This document shows, piece by piece, positions 13,391 through 42,938 of a stretch of 52,690 nt of DNA. The stretch spans positions 1 through 52,690 of the forward strand of contig MNYV01000017.1 in NCBI GenBank assembly GCA_001873285.1, given 5' to 3'. Positions within the stretch are counted from its first letter, which is position 1, and every line of letters starts with the position of its first letter. The position numbers were made by a program, and so were the translations under genes. Below the pieces are notes generated by a model that worked only from the letters and a program-made list of their open reading frames with translations, was not told where the DNA came from and made no database searches. Source of the DNA: Nitrospirae bacterium CG2_30_53_67 (GTDB lineage Bacteria > CG2-30-53-67).

Positions 13391-14211
13391 TGGTGATCAG
13401 GTTTCGCCCTTTTGAAGAAACCGAATTTGACAGGGATTTCTGGCGGATGTTTTGGGTCTCCCTGGCCCTTCACCTTGCCGTAATCTTTTTCATTGCCCTT
13501 GCCCGGAAGATCGCCCCACTTCCCATTTATTATGCCCCGCCTTCGGCTACGACCGTGGATCTGGTTTCCATGGCCGGGCAGGCGCAAAAGAAGGCCGAGG
13601 CCCCGGCCCCGCCACAGGAAAAGGCGGTGATGGTTCCTCCGAAACCAAAGGCTGAGGAGAAGATCCTCATACCCGATGTGAAGAAGGAGAAAAAAGCCCC
13701 GGAAATAGTCAAGAAGGCCGCGCCTGAGGCGGAAAAGGCGGTCAAGAAAAAACCGGTTCCTGAAAAACCGCCGGACAAGGACTACAGTAACAAGGATATC
13801 CGGTCCGCCATTGAGAACCTGAAGAAAAAGATATCCGAAAAGGATGGGGGGGCAGGGAGCGTGGCAGGCCAGGGCCAGCAGCAGGCCATTGCCGGCCGGG
13901 GCGCCATATCCAGCCGGCTGATGGAGATCCGGTATAAAACCTACTATAGCACAATCTGGGAGATTATCCGCGACGCATGGATCATCCCCCAAGGCATATC
14001 CATTGAACGCGATATGGAAACCGTGATCGGCATCGTGATAGAAAAAAATGGGAAAATATCGGACATCACCATTGAAAAAAACTCAGGGAACCAGGCCTTT
14101 GATGATTCGACCATCCGGGCCATTGAAAAAAGCAGCCCCCTTCCACCGATTCCAGGCGAGGAAGAAGAGCTTCCGGTGGGTATCCGTTTTACTCCAGAGG
14201 ATTATCAATGA
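13390..14211 (+). CDS. tolA: TolA/TonB-type periplasmic energy-coupling protein
   Basis: This 273-residue protein with TolA architecture has one N-terminal membrane helix (WVSLALHLAVIFFIALARKI, about 20-39), a Lys/Glu/Ala/Pro-rich periplasmic linker (about 60-140) and a C-terminal TonB-like domain (IGIVIEKNGKISDITIEKNSGNQAFDDSTIRAIEKS, about 210-246). TolA spans the periplasm to reach TolB and Pal. Start ATG 13390 overlaps the tolR stop, and a TTG three bases earlier is the same frame. Its stop overlaps tolB by four bases. By sequence alone it could be called TonB; the operon decides for TolA. Confidence 0.9.
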
Positions 14212-15551
14212 ATAGACATCTTACCCCCTATCTGAAAAAAGTTGCCGTTCTGGCCATGACCTCCATATTTTTTCTTTTTCTCTCGGATGCTTCGGCCGAT
14301 CCCAAGATCTACCTGGATATCAATGCCCCGGTTATCCGGAGGCTCCCTGTGGCCATCCAACTCTTCAAGGATTTGAAACAGGCTCCTGAGGACCTCCCCA
14401 TCGGGAAGGAGCTTCATGAGACCTTAAGCGACGACTTGTCCTTTTCCGGGCTGCTCCAGATCCTGGATCCCACGAGCTTCATTGAAGACCCCGCTGCTTC
14501 GGATACCGATCCGTCCAAGATCCGCTTCGAAGACTGGCGGATCGTGGGTGCCGATGTCCTGATCAAGGGAACCTATCTTCGGAGCGGAGACCAGCTCCAG
14601 ACCATATTTTATCTCTATGATGTGATCCTGCAAAAGCAGATTCTTGCGAAAAAATATTACGGCAAGGTCAGCGAGGTTCGAAGGATGGCCCATCGTTTTG
14701 CAAACGAGATCATCAAACAGATCACCGGAGAGGAAGGGGCCTTCGATACCCGGATCGTCTATCTCTCCATTGCCGGCGGTTTCTATGAGATCCATATCAT
14801 GGACTACGACGGTTATAATGACCATGTCAGTCTGAAGGAAAAACCCATCATCGTTGCGCCCAAATGGTCTACAGACGGCGAAAAGATCGTTTTTACCTCA
14901 TACAGGGAAAAGAATCCCGACCTCTATCAGATCATCGCACAGACCGGCGAAGTCCAGAAAATTTCCGGGGAACCCGGCATCAATACAGGAGGCGTTTACT
15001 CGCCCGGAGGGGGAAGGCTGGCCTACGTCATGAGCAAAGAAGGCAATCCTGAGATCTATATTCTCGACAAGTACTCCAAAACCCCGAGGGCGATGACCAA
15101 AAACTTTGCGACGGATGTATCCCCAGCCTGGTCGCCGGACGGCAAACAAATCGCCTTCATGTCGGATCGGGCAGGGACTCCACAGATCTATATCATGGAT
15201 TACAGCGGCACAAACGTATCCAGGGTCACCTCCCAGGGTAAATACAATGCCTCGCCGGCCTGGTCTCCACGGGGGGACCGGATCGCCTTTTCCAGTCAGA
15301 CCAATGGGCATTTCCAGATCGCAACCATCAAGCCGGATGGGTCCCAGATGATCCTGCTGACGTCCAATGCCGGGAACAATGAGTACCCTTCCTGGTCGCC
15401 GGATGGACGGTTTCTCTGCTTCAGTTCCACACTGGGCGGGAAACCGGACATTTATATCATGAACGCCAATGGCACAAATCTTCGTAAAATCACCTCAAAT
15501 CCGGCTAAAAATACGGCGCCCAACTGGTCGCCAGGCATTTCTGTTGAATAA
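14208..15551 (+). CDS. tolB: Tol-Pal system beta-propeller protein TolB
   Basis: This 447-residue periplasmic protein has a signal peptide ending in the LSDASADPKIYLDI region, an N-terminal alpha/beta domain (to about residue 175) and a six-bladed beta-propeller. The propeller blades repeat the family motif W-S-P-D-G, seen as WSTDGEKIVF, YSPGGGRLAY, WSPDGKQIAFMSDR, WSPRGDRIAF, WSPDGRFLCF and the final WSPG. It binds Pal and is pulled off by TolA. Length is normal. Confidence 0.97.
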   Translation: MNRHLTPYLKKVAVLAMTSIFFLFLSDASADPKIYLDINAPVIRRLPVAIQLFKDLKQAPEDLPIGKELHETLSDDLSFSGLLQILDPTSFIEDPAASDTDPSKIRFEDWRIVGADVLIKGTYLRSGDQLQTIFYLYDVILQKQILAKKYYGKVSEVRRMAHRFANEIIKQITGEEGAFDTRIVYLSIAGGFYEIHIMDYDGYNDHVSLKEKPIIVAPKWSTDGEKIVFTSYREKNPDLYQIIAQTGEVQKISGEPGINTGGVYSPGGGRLAYVMSKEGNPEIYILDKYSKTPRAMTKNFATDVSPAWSPDGKQIAFMSDRAGTPQIYIMDYSGTNVSRVTSQGKYNASPAWSPRGDRIAFSSQTNGHFQIATIKPDGSQMILLTSNAGNNEYPSWSPDGRFLCFSSTLGGKPDIYIMNANGTNLRKITSNPAKNTAPNWSPGISVE

Positions 15552-15571
15552 AAAATTCTTTAAAAAAACTG

Positions 15572-15599
15572 TTTACAAATTAAATTTCTGTATTATACT
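15572..15599 (+). promoter_or_regulatory. Internal sigma70 promoter for pal-cpoB
   Basis: TTTACA (15572-15577) and TATACT (15594-15599) are spaced 16 bases apart in the AT-rich tolB-pal gap. Transcription would begin near 15606, which argues against the upstream ATG at 15605 as the pal start and leaves a leader of about 95 bases. Confidence 0.55.
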
Positions 15600-15700
15600 T
15601 AACCATGTTTGAAAAGGGTGGTACAGCCACGGGGAACAAAGAGGTGGTCTTTTTGTATCTTTGTGGTATTTTTTTTCAACAAGAGAAGGAGGAGCAGCAT

Positions 15701-16210
15701 ATGAAGAAGAACAGATGGATGTCTTTTAGTATCATGGCCATGGCGGTCGTACTCTTATTCGCCTTTGGCGGTTGCGCGAAGAAAGTGGACACGACCAAAT
15801 CAGCCGCAGGGGAAGAAGGCGCCGGCACAGGCATGAAACAAGGCGGTATGGGCTCTGAAGAGATCGAGGCGATCCAACCCAAGGAACTCAAGGATATCTC
15901 TTTTGATTTCGACCGTTTTGATCTCTCTCCGGAAGCGCGTGCAACCCTGGCCGACGATGCTGCATGGCTTGAAAGCAATCCTAATGTCAAGGTGGCGGTT
16001 GAGGGTCACTGCGATGAGCGGGGCACCAATGAATACAACATCGCCCTGGGAGACAGAAGGGCAAAAAGCGCCTATAATTATCTGATCAATTTAGGGATCA
16101 AGGCCGACCGCCTCTCCACCATTTCGTACGGCGAGGAAAAACCCCAGTGTACGGAACATGAAGAGTCCTGCTGGTCGAAAAACAGACGGGCACACTTGTC
16201 CGCGAAGTAA
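15701..16210 (+). CDS. pal: Peptidoglycan-associated lipoprotein Pal
   Basis: Pal is the outer-membrane lipoprotein that binds peptidoglycan and TolB. ATG 15701 follows a strong GGAGGAG ribosome-binding site and gives a clean lipoprotein signal peptide ending LFAFGGC (Cys25). The frame is open back to 15605, but that adds 32 residues ahead of the signal peptide. The C-terminal OmpA-like domain (about 65-169) has the peptidoglycan-binding core VEGHCDERGTNEYNIALGDRRA and the final NRRAHLS. The predicted length of 169 residues is typical. Confidence 0.96.
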   Translation: MKKNRWMSFSIMAMAVVLLFAFGGCAKKVDTTKSAAGEEGAGTGMKQGGMGSEEIEAIQPKELKDISFDFDRFDLSPEARATLADDAAWLESNPNVKVAVEGHCDERGTNEYNIALGDRRAKSAYNYLINLGIKADRLSTISYGEEKPQCTEHEESCWSKNRRAHLSAK

Positions 16211-16278
16211 CTCACAGCTTGGATGTTGAGATTGAAAGAAACCGATAAGCCCAGAGGCACGCTTTAAGGGGAACCGCC

Positions 16279-17166
16279 TTGACGAACATGCACCGAATCC
16301 GGCAGTGGATGATCTTGTCCATGGTAATAGGCCTGTTTTGCGGCTGTGCGGCAATGAACCAGGACGCGCGCATTAACTTTCTTGAAGGACAAATGAAAGA
16401 CGTCCTGCAGAAATCCGCTGAATGGGATGTGTCATCCAAGGATGTCCGCAGGAAGATGGCGGATTTTTCTTCTCAGACGGACTCGATTCAGAATCAAATC
16501 CAGCAGCTTGCCGGACGAGTTGACGAGATTCAGGATAGAAGCGACACTCGTGTGAATACTGCCCCTGTACAACAAGGGATTTCGGAGGAGATTCGGAACC
16601 TGAAGGAACATCTTTCATTCTTAGAAGCCAGAGTGGCGGAACTGGAAAAAACCCTTTCTCCCACAAAGCCGATGAACATGGAGATTCCTTCATCAACCGG
16701 CCCCTCCGAATCCCCTCTGGCGCCTCCACCGGCGGCTGAAATCGAGAGACCGCCTGCGCTGCCGATTGAAGAAACACGGAAAGAGTCCTCACCCCCTGAG
16801 GACGAGCGGGCATACAACGAAGCCATGGATGCAATGAAGCAGAGACAGTATGAGAAGGCCATCCGACAGCTTCGCAGCTTTATCAAGAAATATCCGGGGA
16901 ATGAACTCAATGACAATGCCCAGTACTGGATAGGTGAATCTTACTTTGCGCAGAAGAAGTATGAGGAGGCCATCATCGAGTTCGAAGAAGTGATCACGCA
17001 ATATCCCAAGGGGGAAAAGATCCCGGCCGCCTTGCTCAAGGAAGGGCTTTCATTCCAGGAGCTCAAAGATACCAGCATGGCCCGCCAACTCCTGAAGAAG
17101 CTAGTTGATCAATATCCTGACGCGGAAGAAGCGAAGATGGCCAGGCAGAAATTGAAACAGCTATAG
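16279..17166 (+). CDS. cpoB: Tol-Pal system protein CpoB/YbgF
   Basis: This 295-residue periplasmic protein coordinates peptidoglycan synthesis with Tol-driven constriction. It starts at TTG 16279, with AAGGGG seven bases upstream; ATG 16288 is in the same frame. The signal region ends LFCGCAAM, so this copy may be a lipoprotein, unlike the soluble E. coli CpoB. A coiled-coil (about 25-125) is followed by a Pro-rich linker and three C-terminal TPR units (YNEAMDAMKQRQYEKAI; DNAQYWIGESYFAQKKYEEAIIEF; AALLKEGLSFQEL). It closes the complete tol-pal operon and ends tail-to-tail with the PilZ gene. Confidence 0.94.
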   Translation: MTNMHRIRQWMILSMVIGLFCGCAAMNQDARINFLEGQMKDVLQKSAEWDVSSKDVRRKMADFSSQTDSIQNQIQQLAGRVDEIQDRSDTRVNTAPVQQGISEEIRNLKEHLSFLEARVAELEKTLSPTKPMNMEIPSSTGPSESPLAPPPAAEIERPPALPIEETRKESSPPEDERAYNEAMDAMKQRQYEKAIRQLRSFIKKYPGNELNDNAQYWIGESYFAQKKYEEAIIEFEEVITQYPKGEKIPAALLKEGLSFQELKDTSMARQLLKKLVDQYPDAEEAKMARQKLKQL

Positions 17167-32302: not shown

Positions 32303-34447
32303 ATGATAAAGCGTTTTTCCATCCGGATAAAATTAATCGCCGCCTTCATCATCATCGGCGTCTTCCCCATGCTTCTCGCAACGTATATCGGAGTCGAGAT
32401 CGCTTCAGGAAGGCTGGAGAAGGGGATTGAGGAACGCATCAACTACGCGGGAAAATCCGCCGTTTACCTGATTGCCAAGAAGAAGACGGAACTCGAGGGA
32501 GTGGCCCGTTCTTTTTCCGGGGATCCGAGACTCAGAAAGGTCATCCAGGGCGGAGTGAACATCAAATTCCTCTGGTTTGACACGCCGCTCCAGGTTTACC
32601 TTTTCAATCATGAAAACCATATGATCTTCACCAGCACGGGCGAGAAATTCACCCGTCCGAAAAATCCGGCGGAGGGGATGACCTTGCTCCGGACACAATC
32701 CGGCAGCGAACCGTGGCCGCTCCTGGTCTTTCTTCTGCCTGTGTCGGACCAGGGACGTCCCATCGGGACCATCATGACCGGCTATCCGCTCGGCAATGAA
32801 TTTCTCAACGACCTCAAGAGCGTGACCGGCGTGGAGTCCATGCTTTTCAAACAGGACCCGTCCGGGGGGTACTTCTCCATAGAGACAAAAGGGAGGCTGG
32901 ACCTCCCCGATGAAATCCTAAAAAGTGTGGCAACCCATGGCCGCCAGGCATTCACCAAGTCTTCGAGGATCCGGCTTGAAGAGAAAGAGGAAGAGTATCA
33001 CGCCCTTTTAACCCCCTTGCCGGATGCCGACGGTCGTGTATCGTATATATTATTCAACGGCATATCCTCCTCCGAGACCCTGAGCCGGAAGCTCGCCTCA
33101 ACCCGCTTCTACTATATCCTGATTTTCATCGGTGTGCTCCTTTCCGTCATCGCCGGATCGGCTTTGGGCACGGGGATCTCCTGGCCTATCCTTCGGTTGT
33201 CCAGCGGGGTGAAGGCCATCAGCGCGGGCGATTACAACCAGAAAATACAAGTCCGGAGCCGGGACGAGATCGGAGAACTGGCTGGATCCTTCAACCTCAT
33301 GACGGATCGTCTCAAGGCGACCATCGCCAAACTGGTGGAAAACCAGAACTATACCGAGAATATGCTTCGCAGTCTCCTCAATGGAGTGATGACGATTGAT
33401 CCGGATTCCATGATCATCAGAATAAACCGATCGACCGAAAACATCCTGAACTTGCCGGCGGAGAGGATGGTAGGCAAAAAGATTTCCGCCGTCTTTGATC
33501 AGGATCCATCGATCCTTGCATGGATTCAGGAGGGTCTCGAACGCCGCCAGGTCAAGGAAGGCATGGAAACCATCCTCCACCGGAGAGACGGGGCGATCAT
33601 CCCGATCGAGCTCTCCCTCTCCCCGTTGGAAGATCCGGTCAGACCCGCAGGCTCCAAAACCGGACTGGTGGTCCTGATCCGGGATCTCACCGAGATTCAG
33701 GCGCTCAAGGAACATATCCGCAGGCAAGACCGTCTTGCGGCGCTTGGGGAACTTTCTGCAGGGATTGCCCATGAGATTCGTAACCCCCTCGGAATCATCA
33801 AGGGAGCTGCCGGCATCCTCAAGAAGGACTCGAGCTCACAACCCCCGAGATTTGACGAACTCTGTTCGGTCATCCTGGAGGAGGTCGACCGTTTGAACGA
33901 TGTGATCAACGATTTTCTGGAATTCGCCCGGCCGAGACCACCGCAGTTCAAGCCGCAGAACATCAATGAATTGATCCGCGGAACCATTCAAATGACCGCG
34001 CTGCAGATAGAAAAAAATAAAATCTGCATCCATGAAAACCTTAAATCGGACCTCCCCCTGATCATGGCGGACGAACACCAGATCCACCAGGTCTTTTTAA
34101 ACCTGATTCTGAACGCCCTGCAGGCCACGGACCAGGGGGATTCTCTGGAGATCACCACACGCCATCTTAAAGAATTGAATCAGATCGAAATCATTTTTGC
34201 GGACACCGGAATCGGCATTCCTGAGGATAACCTGAATAAGGTGTTCAACCCATTCTTCACCACGAAAGAACAGGGAACCGGACTTGGACTCTCCGTGGTC
34301 AGCAAAATCATCGAAAACCATCATGGCAAGATTTTCCTGGCCAGTGACGCCGGGAGGGGGACGCGGTTTAACATCCACCTGCCCGTGGCAGAGAAGTTTG
34401 ACAGCGCTGATCAGGAAGATGCCGTGAGAACCGGCTCCGCTAAATAA
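32303..34447 (+). CDS. Membrane sensor histidine kinase (HAMP-PAS-HisKA-HATPase)
   Basis: This 714-residue kinase has TM1 at about 8-28, a periplasmic sensor domain of about 240 residues, TM2 (YYILIFIGVLLSVIAGSAL, about 268-286), HAMP (WPILRLSSGVKAISAGDYNQ), a PAS domain (SLLNGVMTIDPDSMIIRINRSTENILNL), the H-box AHEIRNPLGIIKG and an ATPase domain with NALQATDQGD (N box), DTGIGIPED (G1) and GTGLGLSVVSKI (G2). The partner is the NtrC-type regulator just downstream, now separated from it by repeat copy C. The signal sensed is unknown. Confidence 0.94.
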   Translation: MIKRFSIRIKLIAAFIIIGVFPMLLATYIGVEIASGRLEKGIEERINYAGKSAVYLIAKKKTELEGVARSFSGDPRLRKVIQGGVNIKFLWFDTPLQVYLFNHENHMIFTSTGEKFTRPKNPAEGMTLLRTQSGSEPWPLLVFLLPVSDQGRPIGTIMTGYPLGNEFLNDLKSVTGVESMLFKQDPSGGYFSIETKGRLDLPDEILKSVATHGRQAFTKSSRIRLEEKEEEYHALLTPLPDADGRVSYILFNGISSSETLSRKLASTRFYYILIFIGVLLSVIAGSALGTGISWPILRLSSGVKAISAGDYNQKIQVRSRDEIGELAGSFNLMTDRLKATIAKLVENQNYTENMLRSLLNGVMTIDPDSMIIRINRSTENILNLPAERMVGKKISAVFDQDPSILAWIQEGLERRQVKEGMETILHRRDGAIIPIELSLSPLEDPVRPAGSKTGLVVLIRDLTEIQALKEHIRRQDRLAALGELSAGIAHEIRNPLGIIKGAAGILKKDSSSQPPRFDELCSVILEEVDRLNDVINDFLEFARPRPPQFKPQNINELIRGTIQMTALQIEKNKICIHENLKSDLPLIMADEHQIHQVFLNLILNALQATDQGDSLEITTRHLKELNQIEIIFADTGIGIPEDNLNKVFNPFFTTKEQGTGLGLSVVSKIIENHHGKIFLASDAGRGTRFNIHLPVAEKFDSADQEDAVRTGSAK

Positions 34448-34460
34448 TTTTTTTTAGACC

Positions 34461-34689
34461 ATCTCCAAAAGAGTGGGTGAAAACATAAGGGTTCAAGGGG
34501 TCAAGGATTCCAGGGGTCAAGTGAAGTGCTCAAACACGATAAGGAGTTAAAGGTTTGGCAGAAGTCTTATCAATTATGCTTGGAGATTTACAAAATAACA
34601 AACTGATCAAATCACTGGAAAACAAACACTTGACCCCTTGACCCCTGGAACCCTCGAACCCTTTTTACCCACTAAATGGGAGAAGAACC
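34461..34689. repeat. Family 1 dispersed repeat, copy C, with a four-helix-bundle gene remnant
   Basis: It starts ATCTCCAAAAGAGTGGGTGAAAAC and ends TTTTTACCCACTAAATGGGAGAAGAACC. Between the ends, the plus strand at 34547-34606 reads LKVWQKSYQLCLEIYKITN then stop, which is the start of an S23-type four-helix-bundle protein. After a deletion, the C-terminal piece KLIKSLENKHL follows in another frame. It fills the 301-base gap between a histidine kinase and its regulator; no other gene is in that gap. Confidence 0.8.
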
Positions 34690-34748
34690 TCATTTTAAAA
34701 AGTTGTATGCTTTCTACCGATCCAGGCTACTAAAAAAAAGGTGCACAC

Positions 34749-36113
34749 ATGGAAGAGATCCTGGTCATTGATGATGAAAAAAAGATGCATCGGATCCTCC
34801 AGATCTCCCTGGAAGGGCTGGGATTTCATGTCATCCCTGCCAGCACGGGACTTGAAGGGATAGAACGGGCCAAGACACTCACCCCTTCATTGGTGATCAC
34901 GGACATGAAGATGCCGGGCATGTCCGGAATGGAGGTCCTTCATGAGATCAAAAACATAGGCGAGGAAATTCCCGTGATCATCATGACGGCCTACGGCACG
35001 GTGCAAACCGCCGTGGAAGCCATGAAAGCCGGGGCCTTTGATTACATTCTGAAACCCTTTGACATTTCAGAGATGGAAATCATTGTAGAGAAAGCCGTCC
35101 GTTACCGAAGGCTTGCAAGAGAAAACGAACAGCTCAGATCCGAGCTTCAGTCAAAATACCGGTTCGATAACATCATCGGCAGGAGTAATCCCATGCAGCG
35201 GATTTTCCAGCTGATTAATCAGATCGCCCCCACCAAAAGCACGATTCTGATCCGGGGAGGAAGCGGAACCGGCAAGGAGTTGGTTGCCGGGGCCGTTCAT
35301 TACCACAGCAACCGATCGTCCATGCCTTTCATCAAACTGAACTGCGGCGCCATCCCCGGCACCCTCCTGGAGTCCGAACTTTTCGGGTATGAAAAAGGGG
35401 CCTTCACCGGAGCGGAACGGCAAAAACCGGGGCGTTTCGAGCTGGCAGACGGCGGGACCCTTTTTCTGGATGAGATCGGCGATATGGATACGCTTCTTCA
35501 AGTAAAAATCTTAAGGGTCCTTCAGAACGGGGAGTTTGAACGTCTTGGCGGCACACAAACGATCCGGGTGGATGTGAGGATGATCGCGGCGACCAACACC
35601 GATCTGGAACAGAGAGTTCGGGAGGGCCGCTTCCGCGAGGACCTCTATTACCGGATTAATGTGGTTCCCATCGAAATTCCCCCTCTCCGGGAACGCCGGG
35701 AGGACATCCCCCTTCTGGTCCATCACTTCATTGATAAATACTCGGAGGAGACCCATCAGACGAAAAAAACCATACTACCTGAGGCCATGGATTTGTTAAT
35801 TCATTATGATTGGCCGGGAAACGTACGAGAACTTCAGAATTTGATCGAGCGGGCCGTCGTATTGACCCGCTCCGATACCTTAACCCCGAAATCGTTTACA
35901 TTCCCTGACCGTCCCAGAAAAACCGCCGCATCCCTAAATGAGATCATCATCCCGGAACAAGGGATTTCTCTATCCGATGTGGTGGAAGAGTTGGAGAAAT
36001 CTTACATCAAAAAGGCGTTGATCCAGGCCGAAGGTGTCCAGATCCGGGCCGCAGAACTCCTCCATACGACCAGAAAGATCCTCCGCTATAAAATGGAAAA
36101 GTACGGAATTTAA
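34749..36113 (+). CDS. NtrC-family sigma54-dependent response regulator
   Basis: This 454-residue three-domain regulator has a receiver with the phospho-Asp in [12 protein letters not shown] (about D53) and Lys in ILKPFDI. The AAA+ domain has [16 protein letters not shown] (Walker A), [18 protein letters not shown] (GAFTGA loop that contacts sigma54), [12 protein letters not shown] (Walker B) and [28 protein letters not shown] (sensor/Arg finger region). A Fis-type HTH follows ([23 protein letters not shown]). It activates sigma54 promoters when phosphorylated. Repeat copy C lies between it and the kinase, so their coupling may be altered. Confidence 0.96.
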
Positions 36114-36416: not shown

Positions 36417-37562
36417 ATGAAAACAATAGCAATTGTCAACCAAAAAGGAGGCTGCGGTAAGACAACAACGGCCATCAATCTTTCAGCATCTCTTGCTTCT
36501 TTGGGTAAAAGGGTCTTGCTGATCGATATGGATCCACAGTCACATGCATCATTAGGGCTCAATGTCAGTCCAAAAGAACTCGAAATTTGTCTTTATGATG
36601 TCCTCCTCTCGATCGATGAGGTGGATAGGCCTATACTGGAAGACATTATCTCCCATGTAGGGGAAAATCTCGATCTGATCCCTTCCAATATAGTCCTGTC
36701 TGTCTTTGAACAAAAAATGGCCAACGCTCCGGGGAGAGAAACCCGGCTCCTGCAGGCCATCCAGAGAATGAAGAAAGAATATGATTATATTCTCATTGAC
36801 TGTCCGCCTTCTGTGGGACTTTTGTCCTTCAATGCCTTGATGGCATCCCAGTATGCGATCATCCCCGTTGAACCGAGTTTTTTCTCACTCCACGGTCTTG
36901 GGAAACTCACGGAGACCATCCAGCTCTTTGCTGAAAAATTAAGTCACAACATTCATATTCATATTCTGCTCACCATGTTCGATAGAAGAACAAGGCTTTC
37001 GAGCGAGATCTTTGAGGAGATCAAAAAACATTTCATGGAAAACACGTTCCAGACGGTCATTCACTTTAACATCCGCCTCAAAGAGGCAGCCAGTTTCGGC
37101 TCTCCCATCACCGAGTTTGACAAGCATTGCATCGGATACAAAGATTTTCTTTCCCTTGCACAAGAGGTTCTTCAAATTCCCGAAAAGGAAGCGCAGGAAC
37201 AGACCGCGAAGATCCTCGGCCCTCGTCCGGTGCAAAACGGCGTCCTTTTCTCCTACAAGGGAGCCGATATACAATCCCTGAAACTGGTGGGAGACTTTAA
37301 CAACTGGACGCCGGATCCGTCTTCCGAACTTCAGAAAGAGCCGGATGGGACCTGGAAAAAATTGGTCTCCCTGCCGCCCGGAACCTACCATTACAAGTTC
37401 ATCGCGGATGGAGAGTGGAAGGAGGACCAATATAATCCCAAATACATCATCAACGAGTTCGGCGGGATTGACTCGGTTGTGGAAGTCCCTTACTGGGAAC
37501 GCCATCAGCAAAAAGGGAGTGACCCCGCATCCGATATGAACGCATCATGCCGGCTCCAATGA
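36417..37562 (+). CDS. ParA-family ATPase fused to a glycogen-binding (AMPK-beta/CBM48) domain
   Basis: This 381-residue protein has a complete ParA/Soj ATPase at residues 1-250: MKTIAIVNQKGGCGKTT (deviant Walker A with the signature Lys10 and Lys15), LLIDMDPQSHASLGL (A'), and DYILIDCPPSVGLLSFNAL (Walker B). After a short linker, residues 268-365 form a CBM48-type domain, seen in VLFSYKGADIQSLKLVGDFNNWTP, PDGTWKKLVSLPPGTYHYKFIADGEWKEDQYNP. This is the glycogen/alpha-glucan-binding module of AMPK beta and branching enzymes, with its key Trp residues present. ParA proteins move cargo such as DNA or protein clusters along the nucleoid. Start ATG 36417 follows AAAGGAG. Confidence 0.9.
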   Translation: MKTIAIVNQKGGCGKTTTAINLSASLASLGKRVLLIDMDPQSHASLGLNVSPKELEICLYDVLLSIDEVDRPILEDIISHVGENLDLIPSNIVLSVFEQKMANAPGRETRLLQAIQRMKKEYDYILIDCPPSVGLLSFNALMASQYAIIPVEPSFFSLHGLGKLTETIQLFAEKLSHNIHIHILLTMFDRRTRLSSEIFEEIKKHFMENTFQTVIHFNIRLKEAASFGSPITEFDKHCIGYKDFLSLAQEVLQIPEKEAQEQTAKILGPRPVQNGVLFSYKGADIQSLKLVGDFNNWTPDPSSELQKEPDGTWKKLVSLPPGTYHYKFIADGEWKEDQYNPKYIINEFGGIDSVVEVPYWERHQQKGSDPASDMNASCRLQ

Positions 37563-37609
37563 CCCTGAAGGTCATTCAGTGAAGCAGGCCGGATCTTCCA
37601 TTTATCTAA

Positions 37610-37770
37610 GTGGTCCTGTTCGTAAATATGGTGGCGTACCGAGAGGGCCGTAGGGCGTCTCATCTCCGCGCTCGACTGAGGCGTACCCCTCTGGTACACC
37701 GTAAGGAGCGGAACTTTGATCCGACCGCCTTACGGCACTCGAATGCCACCGTATTTACGAATAGGGCCAC
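37610..37770. mobile_element. Family 2 MITE, copy 2
   Basis: This 161-bp copy has ends GTGGTCCTGTTCGTAAATA and TATTTACGAATAGGGCCAC, flanked by TAA (37607-37609 and 37771-37773). Internal sequence matches copy 1 with scattered changes. It lies in the gap between parA-CBM48 and the MinD-like gene. Confidence 0.87.
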
Positions 37771-37791
37771 TAAGGTCAAAAAGGAGATACC

Positions 37792-38676
37792 ATGTCAGGG
37801 CGGCGGTTGGGAAGAGGGCTCGAGGAGATATCCCATGTATTCCTCTCAACTGAATCCTCAACGAGATCAACCGATAACCCACTCGGTCGGAACGTGCAGG
37901 AGTTTGATTTAAGATGTGATGCGATGCCTGAAATTCACACGATCGGAATCACGGGCGGCCCCATGGAGAGGATGGGCATCTTTGCCATCTGCAACATCGG
38001 GATCGAGCTGGCCAGACAGGGGTACCGGGTGCTGGTGATCGACGAGGATCCCGGAAGTTTGAACGTGACCCGGCTCATGGGGGTGACCGACATTGAGAAC
38101 GCCGCCGAACCCATCTTGATCCATGCCCCCATGGGTGTCCGCATTGCCTACCGCACTCCTTTTCTCAGCCATCTCATGTCTTACAGGGAACTCATCCGGG
38201 ATGGGAGGCGTTGTCCCTGGCCTGAAGAATATCAAAAATATGATTTCATGATTTTTCACATCCCATCCACCCGGTTGGAAGAACTGGGGACCCTGCTCAG
38301 ACAGATCTCCCTCTGTATTGTCATCTCGCCTTCCGACCGGGCAGGTATGCTCAAATCCTACTCTGTGATCAAGGCTCTCCATCAGAAGTCTGGAGAGATT
38401 CAAACCGGCCTGATTGTTTATTCTGAAAAAGGTGAGCAGGATGCGGAAGACGCCTTTTTCAAAATGGCCAAGAATGCAAAACGGTTTTTGGAAAAAGATC
38501 TTGTCAGCTATGCTTTTATACAGAAAGGAGAGGAGATCGACGAATCCATATCCCAAGGGGTCCCATTGGTATTGAAATGGCCGAGTTCCGAGATACGAAG
38601 ACAAATGTATAATATCAGCAGATTGATCATTGAGGATGATGACCGGAGGCGCAGTTCCGATGGAAATATGGAATAG
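37792..38676 (+). CDS. MinD/ParA-like protein lacking Walker A, with a ParB-like N-terminal peptide
   Basis: In this 294-residue protein, residues 45-290 follow the MinD/ParA/FlhG fold (HTIGITGGPMERMGIFAICNIGIELARQGYRVLVIDEDPGSLNVTRLMGV; YDFMIFHIPSTRLEELGTLLRQISLCIVISPSDRAGMLKSYSVIKAL). The P-loop is GGPMERMG in place of KGGxGKT, so ATP hydrolysis is probably lost. The first residues, GRRLGRGLEEI, resemble the N-terminal GLGRGLDAL peptide by which ParB stimulates ParA. ATG 37792 follows AAAAAGGAGA. It is followed 20 bases later by the third gene of the cassette. Confidence 0.8.
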   Translation: MSGRRLGRGLEEISHVFLSTESSTRSTDNPLGRNVQEFDLRCDAMPEIHTIGITGGPMERMGIFAICNIGIELARQGYRVLVIDEDPGSLNVTRLMGVTDIENAAEPILIHAPMGVRIAYRTPFLSHLMSYRELIRDGRRCPWPEEYQKYDFMIFHIPSTRLEELGTLLRQISLCIVISPSDRAGMLKSYSVIKALHQKSGEIQTGLIVYSEKGEQDAEDAFFKMAKNAKRFLEKDLVSYAFIQKGEEIDESISQGVPLVLKWPSSEIRRQMYNISRLIIEDDDRRRSSDGNME

Positions 38677-38696: not shown

Positions 38697-39263
38697 ATGC
38701 CATTTAAACAAATCCATCTGAACAAGAAACAAGACCTGATCCAGCTCATCAGGAACACCTCAACCCTGATTGAACAGGGGGTTGAAATTCTCGGCGGCCC
38801 GATCGGAACGGAGGAATTCCCCCTGATTGATCTGGTAATGAAAGATAGAAATAGAAGGCCTCTGCTGATTCTTGCTGATGTCGGACCGGATGAAAACGCC
38901 CTGTTGAATGCGGAATCTCAATCGGACTGGTTTGTAAAAAACCTCTCCATGCTCAGGCAGTTGTTCCCGATCCTTGACTTGAACAAAACGGTTTCCCCCC
39001 GGGCTGCCCTGATCTACCCGGAATTTCCTATGCTGATGAAAAGGTCCCTCAGGGCAGCCCCTCTCCTATCCCCGCTGTTTTATCAATATCGCTGTTTTGA
39101 GGTTCTTGATCAAAGGTTTCTCTATCTGGAGCGGTTTCAAACGAACCCTGAAAAACAGGGCTCGAGCGGAGAGTATATTGAAGGTCTTCACCCTTTCCGG
39201 AAAGGCCTTGCCGGAAAAGAGGTGGAGATCACGGCAGAGGAGAGAGAGGCTTTTCTCTCCTGA
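38697..39263 (+). CDS. Protein of unknown function, third gene of the ParA-CBM48 cassette
   Basis: This soluble protein of 188 residues has no signal or membrane segment. The central FPLIDLVMKDRNRRPLLILADVG (about 43-65) has the strand-turn-strand look of restriction-endonuclease-like domains, where an Asp is followed by a second acidic residue, but the usual E-x-K is A-D-V, so it would be inactive if related. The C-terminal half has RYCFEVLDQRF-like aromatic residues (YRCFEVLDQRFLYLERF). I do not recognise a named family. It is 20 bases downstream of the MinD-like gene and ends before a two-way terminator. Confidence 0.7.
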   Translation: MPFKQIHLNKKQDLIQLIRNTSTLIEQGVEILGGPIGTEEFPLIDLVMKDRNRRPLLILADVGPDENALLNAESQSDWFVKNLSMLRQLFPILDLNKTVSPRAALIYPEFPMLMKRSLRAAPLLSPLFYQYRCFEVLDQRFLYLERFQTNPEKQGSSGEYIEGLHPFRKGLAGKEVEITAEEREAFLS

Positions 39264-41425: not shown

Positions 41426-41576
41426 CCCCTCTTTAGGATTATTTATTATAAATAAACACCGGCTCGGTTCTTGAATCATCCAAGAATCCTCTCAAGTTCC
41501 GGGCCATGAGATCCGATAAAATATTCATAAAAGCATGAGAATGACGTCCTGAGATATGGATAGGGAGGAACCATCC

Positions 41577-42938
41577 ATGCAGTTCAAATCAAGCCTCAAA
41601 ATGAGATATTGTCCGATGATCGACTCCTTCATCAAGGTCAAAGAGCTGACCCAGGAAGAAATGGACCTGTTTTTTCAAAACGCAGACATGAGGGATAAAA
41701 GCTCATACCAGGAGCTGGTTATCAAGGCGTCTATTCCTGAGTACGATGAAGAGGTCCGATCCTTGATCCATCGTGAATATGACCGGGAGGTCGACATTGA
41801 AAGCGCCATCGAGGAACTCTACCGGATGTGTATCAAGGTGAACCCGTCTTTGAATATCTACAATGTCAATATACCCGTGCAGGAAAAAAATGAGCGATCC
41901 TCTTTGCTCCTCTCTACAGGGGGAAAAGACCTCTGGACCTGCATACGGGAAATCCATGGAATCGAAGACTCGTTAAGAAAGAGGATCATAGGACAGGATG
42001 AGGCCATTAACAAGATCGCCCAGTCTATCAAAAGCGCAAAGGTCGGGATCAAGGATTCAAACAGGCCGGTGGGATGTTTCCTTTTCATCGGGCAGACCGG
42101 CGTAGGCAAGACCGAACTGGCCAAGGCCCTGGCCGAGTTCTTGACCGGGGATGAGAAAAATATGGTCCGGGTGGACTGCTCGGAGTTCTCGCAGCCCCAT
42201 GAATATGCCAAGCTGATCGGCGCCCCTCCGGGTTATGTAGGATACGATGACGGCGGGAGCCTTAGCGAACAGATGCTGAAACGGCCGGTGAATGTGGTCC
42301 TCTTCGATGAGATCGAAAAGGCAAACCCCATGATCCACAACCTGCTTCTTCAAATCATGGATGAGGGGATTCTCACCGACAATAAAGGGAGAAAAATCCC
42401 CTTCCAGGATGCCGTGATCATCCTCACGAGCAACGCAGGCGTTGAAGGAATTGAGGAGATGAAAAGCGCCGTAGGATTCACGAGACAGGACGTCTTGAAT
42501 CGTAACGTGGTCAGGCGTGAGACCCTGAAATCCCTTGAGAAGATCTTCCGCCCTGAATTCCTGAACCGCATTGACGAGATCATTTGTTTCAACCCGCTCG
42601 GACACAAGGAAACACGAAGGATTGTCCAACTGCAGCTTGAACACCTGCAGCGGAAACTCAGCGGGATGAAGATCCATCTCCGGTTCAGCAGGAATGTCAT
42701 CAATTTTCTGATCCGCGAAGGCGCCGATCCGCGTTATGGAGCAAGACCTTTGAAGCGCGCCGTCAAAAAGTTCATTGAAGTACCGCTGGCTGAAAGAATT
42801 CTGAGCGGACCGGCTTCGTTACCTGCAAAAATTCTGGCGGTGATGTCGGAAGAAAAAAGCGTCACCTTTGTGGATCCGGCGCCTCGGCAAAAATCATCAA
42901 AACGGGGAAAAGAAATCAGGAACCAGGTTACCCCGTGA
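41577..42938 (+). CDS. Single-AAA+ Clp/Hsp100-like ATPase with a novel N-terminal domain
   Basis: The protein is about 453 residues. Its C-terminal 310 residues correspond to the second AAA+ module (D2) of ClpA/ClpB/ClpC: FIGQTGVGKTELAKALAEFL (Walker A), GAPPGYVGYDDGG (pore loop), NVVLFDEIEKANP (Walker B), VIILTSNAG (sensor 1), FRPEFLNRIDEIICF and the D2-small domain GADPRYGARPLKRAVKKFIEVPLAERIL. AVGFTRQD sits where ClpA/ClpC have their ClpP-docking loop. The first 130 residues match neither a Clp-N nor a zinc-finger ClpX domain. ATG 41577 follows GGGAGGA; the upstream ATG 41556 has no ribosome-binding site. It diverges from groESL. Confidence 0.85.
   Translation: MQFKSSLKMRYCPMIDSFIKVKELTQEEMDLFFQNADMRDKSSYQELVIKASIPEYDEEVRSLIHREYDREVDIESAIEELYRMCIKVNPSLNIYNVNIPVQEKNERSSLLLSTGGKDLWTCIREIHGIEDSLRKRIIGQDEAINKIAQSIKSAKVGIKDSNRPVGCFLFIGQTGVGKTELAKALAEFLTGDEKNMVRVDCSEFSQPHEYAKLIGAPPGYVGYDDGGSLSEQMLKRPVNVVLFDEIEKANPMIHNLLLQIMDEGILTDNKGRKIPFQDAVIILTSNAGVEGIEEMKSAVGFTRQDVLNRNVVRRETLKSLEKIFRPEFLNRIDEIICFNPLGHKETRRIVQLQLEHLQRKLSGMKIHLRFSRNVINFLIREGADPRYGARPLKRAVKKFIEVPLAERILSGPASLPAKILAVMSEEKSVTFVDPAPRQKSSKRGKEIRNQVTP

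Follow-up and report, generated by a model that had tools for sequence, protein, structure and literature searches.

What does a ParA ATPase do when it is joined to a glycogen-binding domain? ParA-type switches position DNA and organelles, but the placement and sharing of bacterial glycogen, unlike those of carboxysomes, PHB, and polyphosphate, are absent from the positioning literature that we found. The question is raised by one gene in the window, the 52,690-nucleotide stretch of DNA from Nitrospirae bacterium CG2_30_53_67 (contig MNYV01000017.1) that was analysed here. The original prediction, made from this sequence, was that the gene encodes an intact ParA that continues in one frame into a C-terminal glycan-binding domain of the CBM48 type, and that the product may place or partition glycogen granules or couple a partition motor to the carbohydrate state. 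The system to which this gene belongs may be a machine that handles cellular sugar stores.

The fusion protein and its two domains

36417-37562, plus strand: ParA-CBM fusion, 381 aa, consisting of a Soj-like deviant Walker A ATPase (residues 1-255), a short linker (256-268), an AMPK-beta-type CBM (269-358), and a disordered tail
36417-37181, plus strand: ParA ATPase domain, with a KGGCGKTT Walker A motif that contains the signature lysine and a LLIDMDPQSH Walker A' motif
37221-37490, plus strand: AMPK1_CBM domain, in which W297, K327, and W334 are the equivalents of AMPK beta-1 W100, K126, and W133

The fusion is a single unbroken reading frame with an AGGAG-type ribosome site 5' of its ATG. 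Profile searches and structure prediction bear out the predicted arrangement of an intact ParA and a glycan-binding domain in one frame. In Pfam, residues 1-181 match AAA_31 (E 6.4e-57) and residues 286-357 match AMPK1_CBM, PF16561 (E 4.7e-11; 43.2 bits versus a curated cut-off of 26.8). When the C-terminal 120 aa are compared with PDB sequences, the top matches are the glycogen-binding domains of AMPK beta-1 and beta-2 (2e-8). The AlphaFold model, built with 21 orthologues, predicts both domains with confidence (mean pLDDT 85), with a low-confidence linker at 258-264 between them, and its ParA part adopts the Soj fold, aligning with Soj/ParA chains at TMt 0.93 (Foldseek). A small correction concerns the subtype of the second domain: it is of the AMPK-beta type, PF16561, rather than the branching-enzyme type, PF02922. 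(It should be noted that a search with the CBM_48 profile PF02922 is uninformative, because that profile cross-matches the AMPK domain itself.)

The ATPase domain has what defines a ParA/Soj deviant Walker A ATPase: a KGGxGKT Walker A motif, a DxDPQ Walker A' motif, and a Soj-type fold. K10, G11, G12, G14, K15, D37, D39, P40, and Q41 are invariant in the alignment of 21 fusion orthologues. The sequence DPQSH, which replaces the DPQ(G/A)N of Soj/ParA, is a signature of the lineage, present in 22 of 24 fusions. Identity with BcsQ, the MinD-like protein of cellulose systems, is not indicated, since the score with NCBIfam TIGR03371 is 74 bits, below the cut-off of 157.85.

Within AMPK beta-1, residues W100, K126, W133, L146, and T148 contact glucan, and their mutation weakens glycogen binding (PMC2642990). 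The equivalents of W100 and W133 are tryptophan in all 21 fusion orthologues, and the K126 equivalent is K or R in 20 of the 21; the L146 equivalent is F or Y, and the T148 equivalent is variable. The tryptophans are also largely kept in a further set from the Phycisphaerae (40 loci retrieved, ParA found in 39, which are the basis of the counts given here): the first is kept in 39/39 loci and the second in 36/39, and all 39 have an FNxW-type CBM motif. The prediction was to be doubted if homologues had lost the aromatic residues that bind glucan; both are retained. Given this conservation of the contact residues, the fusion probably binds carbohydrate, and glucan in particular. The domain resembles the AMPK beta-subunit module in family and in its main contact residues, but its neighbour in the protein is a P-loop switch of bacterial type, whereas the AMPK module belongs to a kinase complex. 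At the level of sequence, the fusion, its ATPase motifs, its glucan-contact residues, and their conservation are well supported, and both the ATPase and the CBM are evidently under selection.

The ParA domain may no longer ride on the nucleoid. Four lysines of HpParA bind DNA (PMC11229316). These residues, K199, K227, K230, and K247, were mapped onto the fusions and compared with 8 canonical ParAs. The K227 equivalent is R in 8/8 canonical proteins versus only 5/24 fusions, while the K230 equivalent is K or R in 20/24 fusions; positions K199 and K247 are unconserved even among the canonical ParAs. Overall net charge does not differ between fusions and canonical ParAs (p 0.44), and an argument for lost nucleoid binding from overall charge was dropped for this reason. 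The basic patch thus appears to be partly eroded in the fusions, and the usual nucleoid-riding model may not apply. With the K227 position mostly lost, K230 kept, and charge equal, nucleoid binding by the fusions is uncertain, and glucan may serve as the replacement surface.

The partner gene and the third gene

37792-38676, plus strand: partner gene, 294 aa, in which a ParB-like peptide at the disordered N-terminus precedes a MinD/ParA fold that is catalytically degenerate and lacks the Walker A lysines
37792-37851, plus strand: partner N-terminal motif MSGRRLGRGLEEISHVFLST, an LGRG ParA-contact peptide plus a conserved (D/E)(I/V)SHxFLS box
38697-39263, plus strand: third gene, 188 aa, a domain without Pfam or PDB match that is fused to the partner in Phycisphaerae

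As a rule, the partners of ParA/MinD ATPases act through an N-terminus that is disordered and charged (PMC10241942). Neither the partner gene described here nor the third gene figured in the original prediction. In the case of HpParB, residues 1-10 are MAKNKVLGRG, the LGRG arginine binds ParA at the dimer interface, and the same ParB tail stimulates ParA in other systems (PMC11229316). The gene downstream of the fusion encodes such an N-terminus: its disordered, positively charged segment RRLGRGLEEISHVFLS bears LGRG, the peptide by which ParB contacts ParA. In the predicted structure (model pLDDT 64), residues 1-46 are disordered with pLDDT under 50, and the rest has an FlhG/MinD-like fold. 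Similarity of the partner to CbiA/AAA_31 is weak and below the Pfam cut-offs; hhalign relates it to the ParA part of the fusion at 85%. No ParB domain (CTPase/HTH) is found by Pfam in the protein adjoining the fusion, and so a ParB encoded alongside, as in ParABS, is missing; the ParB of this genome accompanies another ParA (L002).

The box is tightly associated with the fusion. In its strict form, [DE][IV]S[HDN][VLIY][FY][LFM]S, it occurs at 10 independent loci (a raw count of 17 included duplicate copies), each time in the gene that adjoins the fusion, and 0 times elsewhere in 4,364 ORFs; variants of it are present in at least 23 of the 39 additional Phycisphaerae loci. The full LGRG form is confined to the window's own family and L014; elsewhere the box is retained and other basic residues precede it. 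The bodies behind the motif vary: in the own family the motif is followed by a degenerate ParA, in L014 and L106 by a small cysteine-containing domain, and in Phycisphaerae by a diverged pseudo-ParA. No motif-bearing partner adjoins the fusion at L015, L019, L023, or about 15 of the 39 Phycisphaerae loci. For Omnitrophota, the gene upstream of the fusion encodes an apparent membrane protein with a short N-terminal box of weaker resemblance (DHLAKVYLGKR, NHIADTYFYQK), possibly an analogue of the adaptor:

L018, 5383-5985: apparent membrane protein upstream of the fusion
L020, 174-911: apparent membrane protein upstream of the fusion
L096, 8469-9167: apparent membrane protein upstream of the fusion

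Judged by its ParB-like peptide, the partner is likely to activate the ATPase of the fusion. Soj/ParA, the type Ib chromosome partition ATPase that works with ParB/Spo0J, is alike in its ATPase fold, its motifs, and a downstream partner with an LGRG-type N-terminal peptide. It differs in that the fusion adds a C-terminal glucan-binding domain and has as its partner a degenerate MinD-fold protein, whereas the partner of Soj/ParA is the DNA-binding ParB. The McdA/McdB carboxysome positioning system and other orphan ParA/MinD systems likewise pair an ATPase with a non-ParB adaptor that has a charged disordered N-terminus, but here the ATPase itself carries a polysaccharide-binding domain.

The pairing of the third gene with the partner is seen again in the own family and in L017. 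In Phycisphaerae, the C-terminal domain of the partner matches the third protein along 118 alignment columns (hhalign 91.9%, E 9e-8), and the preceding part of the same protein aligns with gene 2 (hhalign 99.0%, E 5e-17). Genes 2 and 3 are thus one protein in that group, a Rosetta-stone pattern that supports a three-part system; like the ParB-like peptide, the three-component association is well supported. Suspected by eye to be a dead PD-(D/E)xK-like nuclease fold, the third protein gains no support for this from Pfam or PDB and represents an orphan family.

The glycogen link and the possible roles of the system

The genome of the window encodes a GT5 glycogen-synthase-type protein (contig C90), a phosphorylase (C146), a CBM48 protein whose 744 aa fit the size of a branching enzyme (C68), and an AMPK-type CBM of 96 aa that stands alone (C60). 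Co-occurrence with glycogen genes is seen in most fusion genomes, but these genes are also common in controls and, with one exception, do not adjoin the fusion. Phosphorylase-type matches are found in 19/22 fusion genomes versus 6/12 non-fusion genomes (Fisher p about 0.04), a difference that, with draft genomes and common genes, gives weak support; GT5 synthase, in 21/22 versus 12/14 controls, is uninformative. Since glycogen genes are near-universal, their co-occurrence with the fusion is weak evidence, and one genome (G021) has the fusion with neither a GT5 nor a phosphorylase match. A motif scan of the fusion loci found no adjoining glycogen enzyme except a GH13 gene in L089. This gene (14083-16596), in the genome of L017, encodes a GH13-type enzyme with an N-terminal AMPK-type CBM and lies ~3 kb upstream of the fusion; the genome has 8 AMPK-CBM matches. 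In two fusion genomes, G004 and G013, free-standing AMPK-type CBMs lie ~1-3 kb from GT5 or phosphorylase genes, which indicates that this type of CBM accompanies glycogen metabolism in fusion-bearing genomes. (The small proteins concerned, of about 100-130 aa, are at L107, G004:C186, and L108, G013:C2.)

With about even confidence, we propose that the fusion is the ATPase of a ParA/MinD-type ATPase-plus-adaptor system with an alpha-glucan-binding arm, which would link and space, partition, or regulate glucan stores. ATP binding would dimerise the ParA domains, and the two CBMs, so paired, would form a bivalent glucan binder on glycogen. The disordered basic N-terminus of the partner, with its LGRG, would dock on the ParA dimer as ParB does, stimulate hydrolysis, and set the dimer free. 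A second attachment would come from the body of the partner (a pseudo-ParA fold plus the third domain, or in Omnitrophota possibly a membrane protein). As a result, glucan stores would be linked to another structure and be spaced, partitioned, or locally regulated in an ATP-dependent manner. In this scheme the binding to glucan, the stimulation of the ATPase, and the resulting positioning or regulation are inferred. The domain calls stand, and the predicted placing or partitioning of glycogen granules is plausible, but it is still inference, and glycogen positioning as such is a tentative reading that we hold at somewhat below even. Glucan might also be a surface rather than a cargo. In this less likely variant, glycogen would be the working surface in the nucleoid's stead: the ATP-dimerised ParA-CBM would clamp a glucan particle, and the partner, anchored elsewhere, would ride on or release the clamp.

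A sensor rather than a positioner is unlikely, yet several features fit it. The CBM would read the level or branching of glycogen and gate the ParA switch, through which the partner would control an enzyme, a membrane protein, or the cell cycle. The homologous AMPK domain is a regulatory glycogen sensor (PMC2642990), and the partner's fold is nearest to structures of FlhG/MinD, whose type of switch works by such control. The candidate partner next to the Omnitrophota fusions resembles a membrane protein, a sensor kinase and a sigma-54 regulator immediately precede the fusion in the own family, and part of the nucleoid-binding patch has been lost. However, a ParB-like activator peptide is typical of partition and positioning systems, and no regulated target is evident around the fusion.

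Less likely still is that the CBM-like domain has turned into a protein-protein module without a role in glucan binding, the cargo being an unrelated protein or DNA. In two Phycisphaerae lineages, L037 and L042, the CBM has been lost and ParA remains, as does a partner with the motif, which shows that these lineages can do without the CBM. Such a module would also fit the L146 and T148 positions, which are unconserved, the distance of the glycogen genes from the fusion, and G021 with its lack of GT5 and phosphorylase matches. But the two glucan-touching tryptophans and the basic residue are kept across phyla, for which a mere scaffold would have no need, and the genomes of both CBM-less lineages also have no phosphorylase match.

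If the proposal of an ATPase with a glucan-binding arm is correct, ParA systems would extend, in a form conserved across phyla, to a polysaccharide store as matrix or cargo. A ParA system for glycogen is mentioned neither in a 2025 review of organelle positioning (PMC13052382, in which the word 'glycogen' occurs 0 times) nor in PMC10241942, and a literature search for ParA combined with CBM48, AMPK1_CBM, or glycogen granules found no relevant paper. The granule tethers PhaM/PhaF/PhaH and AlgP also connect storage granules with some other structure in the cell; unlike the fusion, they are neither ATPases nor glucan binders but passive tethers of PHB or polyphosphate to DNA (PMC13052382). A conserved ATPase that combines a positioning motor with an AMPK-like glycogen-binding domain and has a recognisable activator partner is a concrete, testable candidate. 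Its genetic signature for finding the system in isolates is a DPQSH ParA, a CBM, and a partner with (D/E)ISHxFLS.

Origin, distribution, and surroundings of the fusion

Among GTDB representatives, a scan identified 51 loci. Full-length fusions are present in the own lineage (where one relative bears the label Nitrospirae), Desulfobacterales, Omnitrophota, Krumholzibacteriota, Phycisphaerae (Planctomycetota), and one unclassified MAG, so that the search for further ParA-CBM fusions yielded orthologues in five named phylum-level groups. Among relatives, the fusion is found in the genome itself, a congener, 3/4 other genomes of the family, 1/2 in the class, and a single genome further away; a strong match, one per genome, is present in 53 of the 101 Phycisphaerae genomes that were sampled. 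In an IQ-TREE phylogeny of 61 ParA domains, all 24 fusions form a single clade (support 100/99) with one CBM-less pair nested inside it, and all canonical ParAs, including the ParB-linked ParA of the same genome (L002), fall outside. This topology gives one gain of the CBM and one later loss. With full-length orthologues from independent genomes in one clade, the fusion is neither chance nor misassembly, and the latter is refuted. It is ancient and common to bacteria of at least five phyla. That the gene is a standard chromosomal or plasmid ParA to which a C-terminal extension was added by accident or misassembly is extremely improbable: the best Foldseek match is a Soj model (46% identity), but the fusions form one cross-phylum clade apart from L002 and have no ParB neighbour, and the CBM part has no plasmid match at 80% coverage and none in phages. 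A plasmid or phage origin is likewise unsupported by these searches.

One element lies between the fusion and its partner:

37601-37779, no strand assigned: MITE-like repeat, about 170 bp long, whose 35-nt terminal inverted repeats are imperfect and which has inserted between the fusion and the partner gene

At least 40 copies of this repeat occur in the genome (86-93% identity), and one of them, on contig C83 (26002-26171), immediately precedes the canonical parA; the repeat does not belong to the fusion system. Immediately upstream of the fusion, 32303-36113 encodes a histidine kinase paired with a sigma-54 response regulator; this pair is syntenic in L011-L013, and groES/groEL lie downstream on the opposite strand. 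Further along, 41556-42938 encodes a 460-aa ClpA/ClpB-D2-like AAA+ protein (a single AAA_2 plus ClpB_D2-small) in which no N-terminal Clp domains were found; its synteny is also kept in L011-L013.
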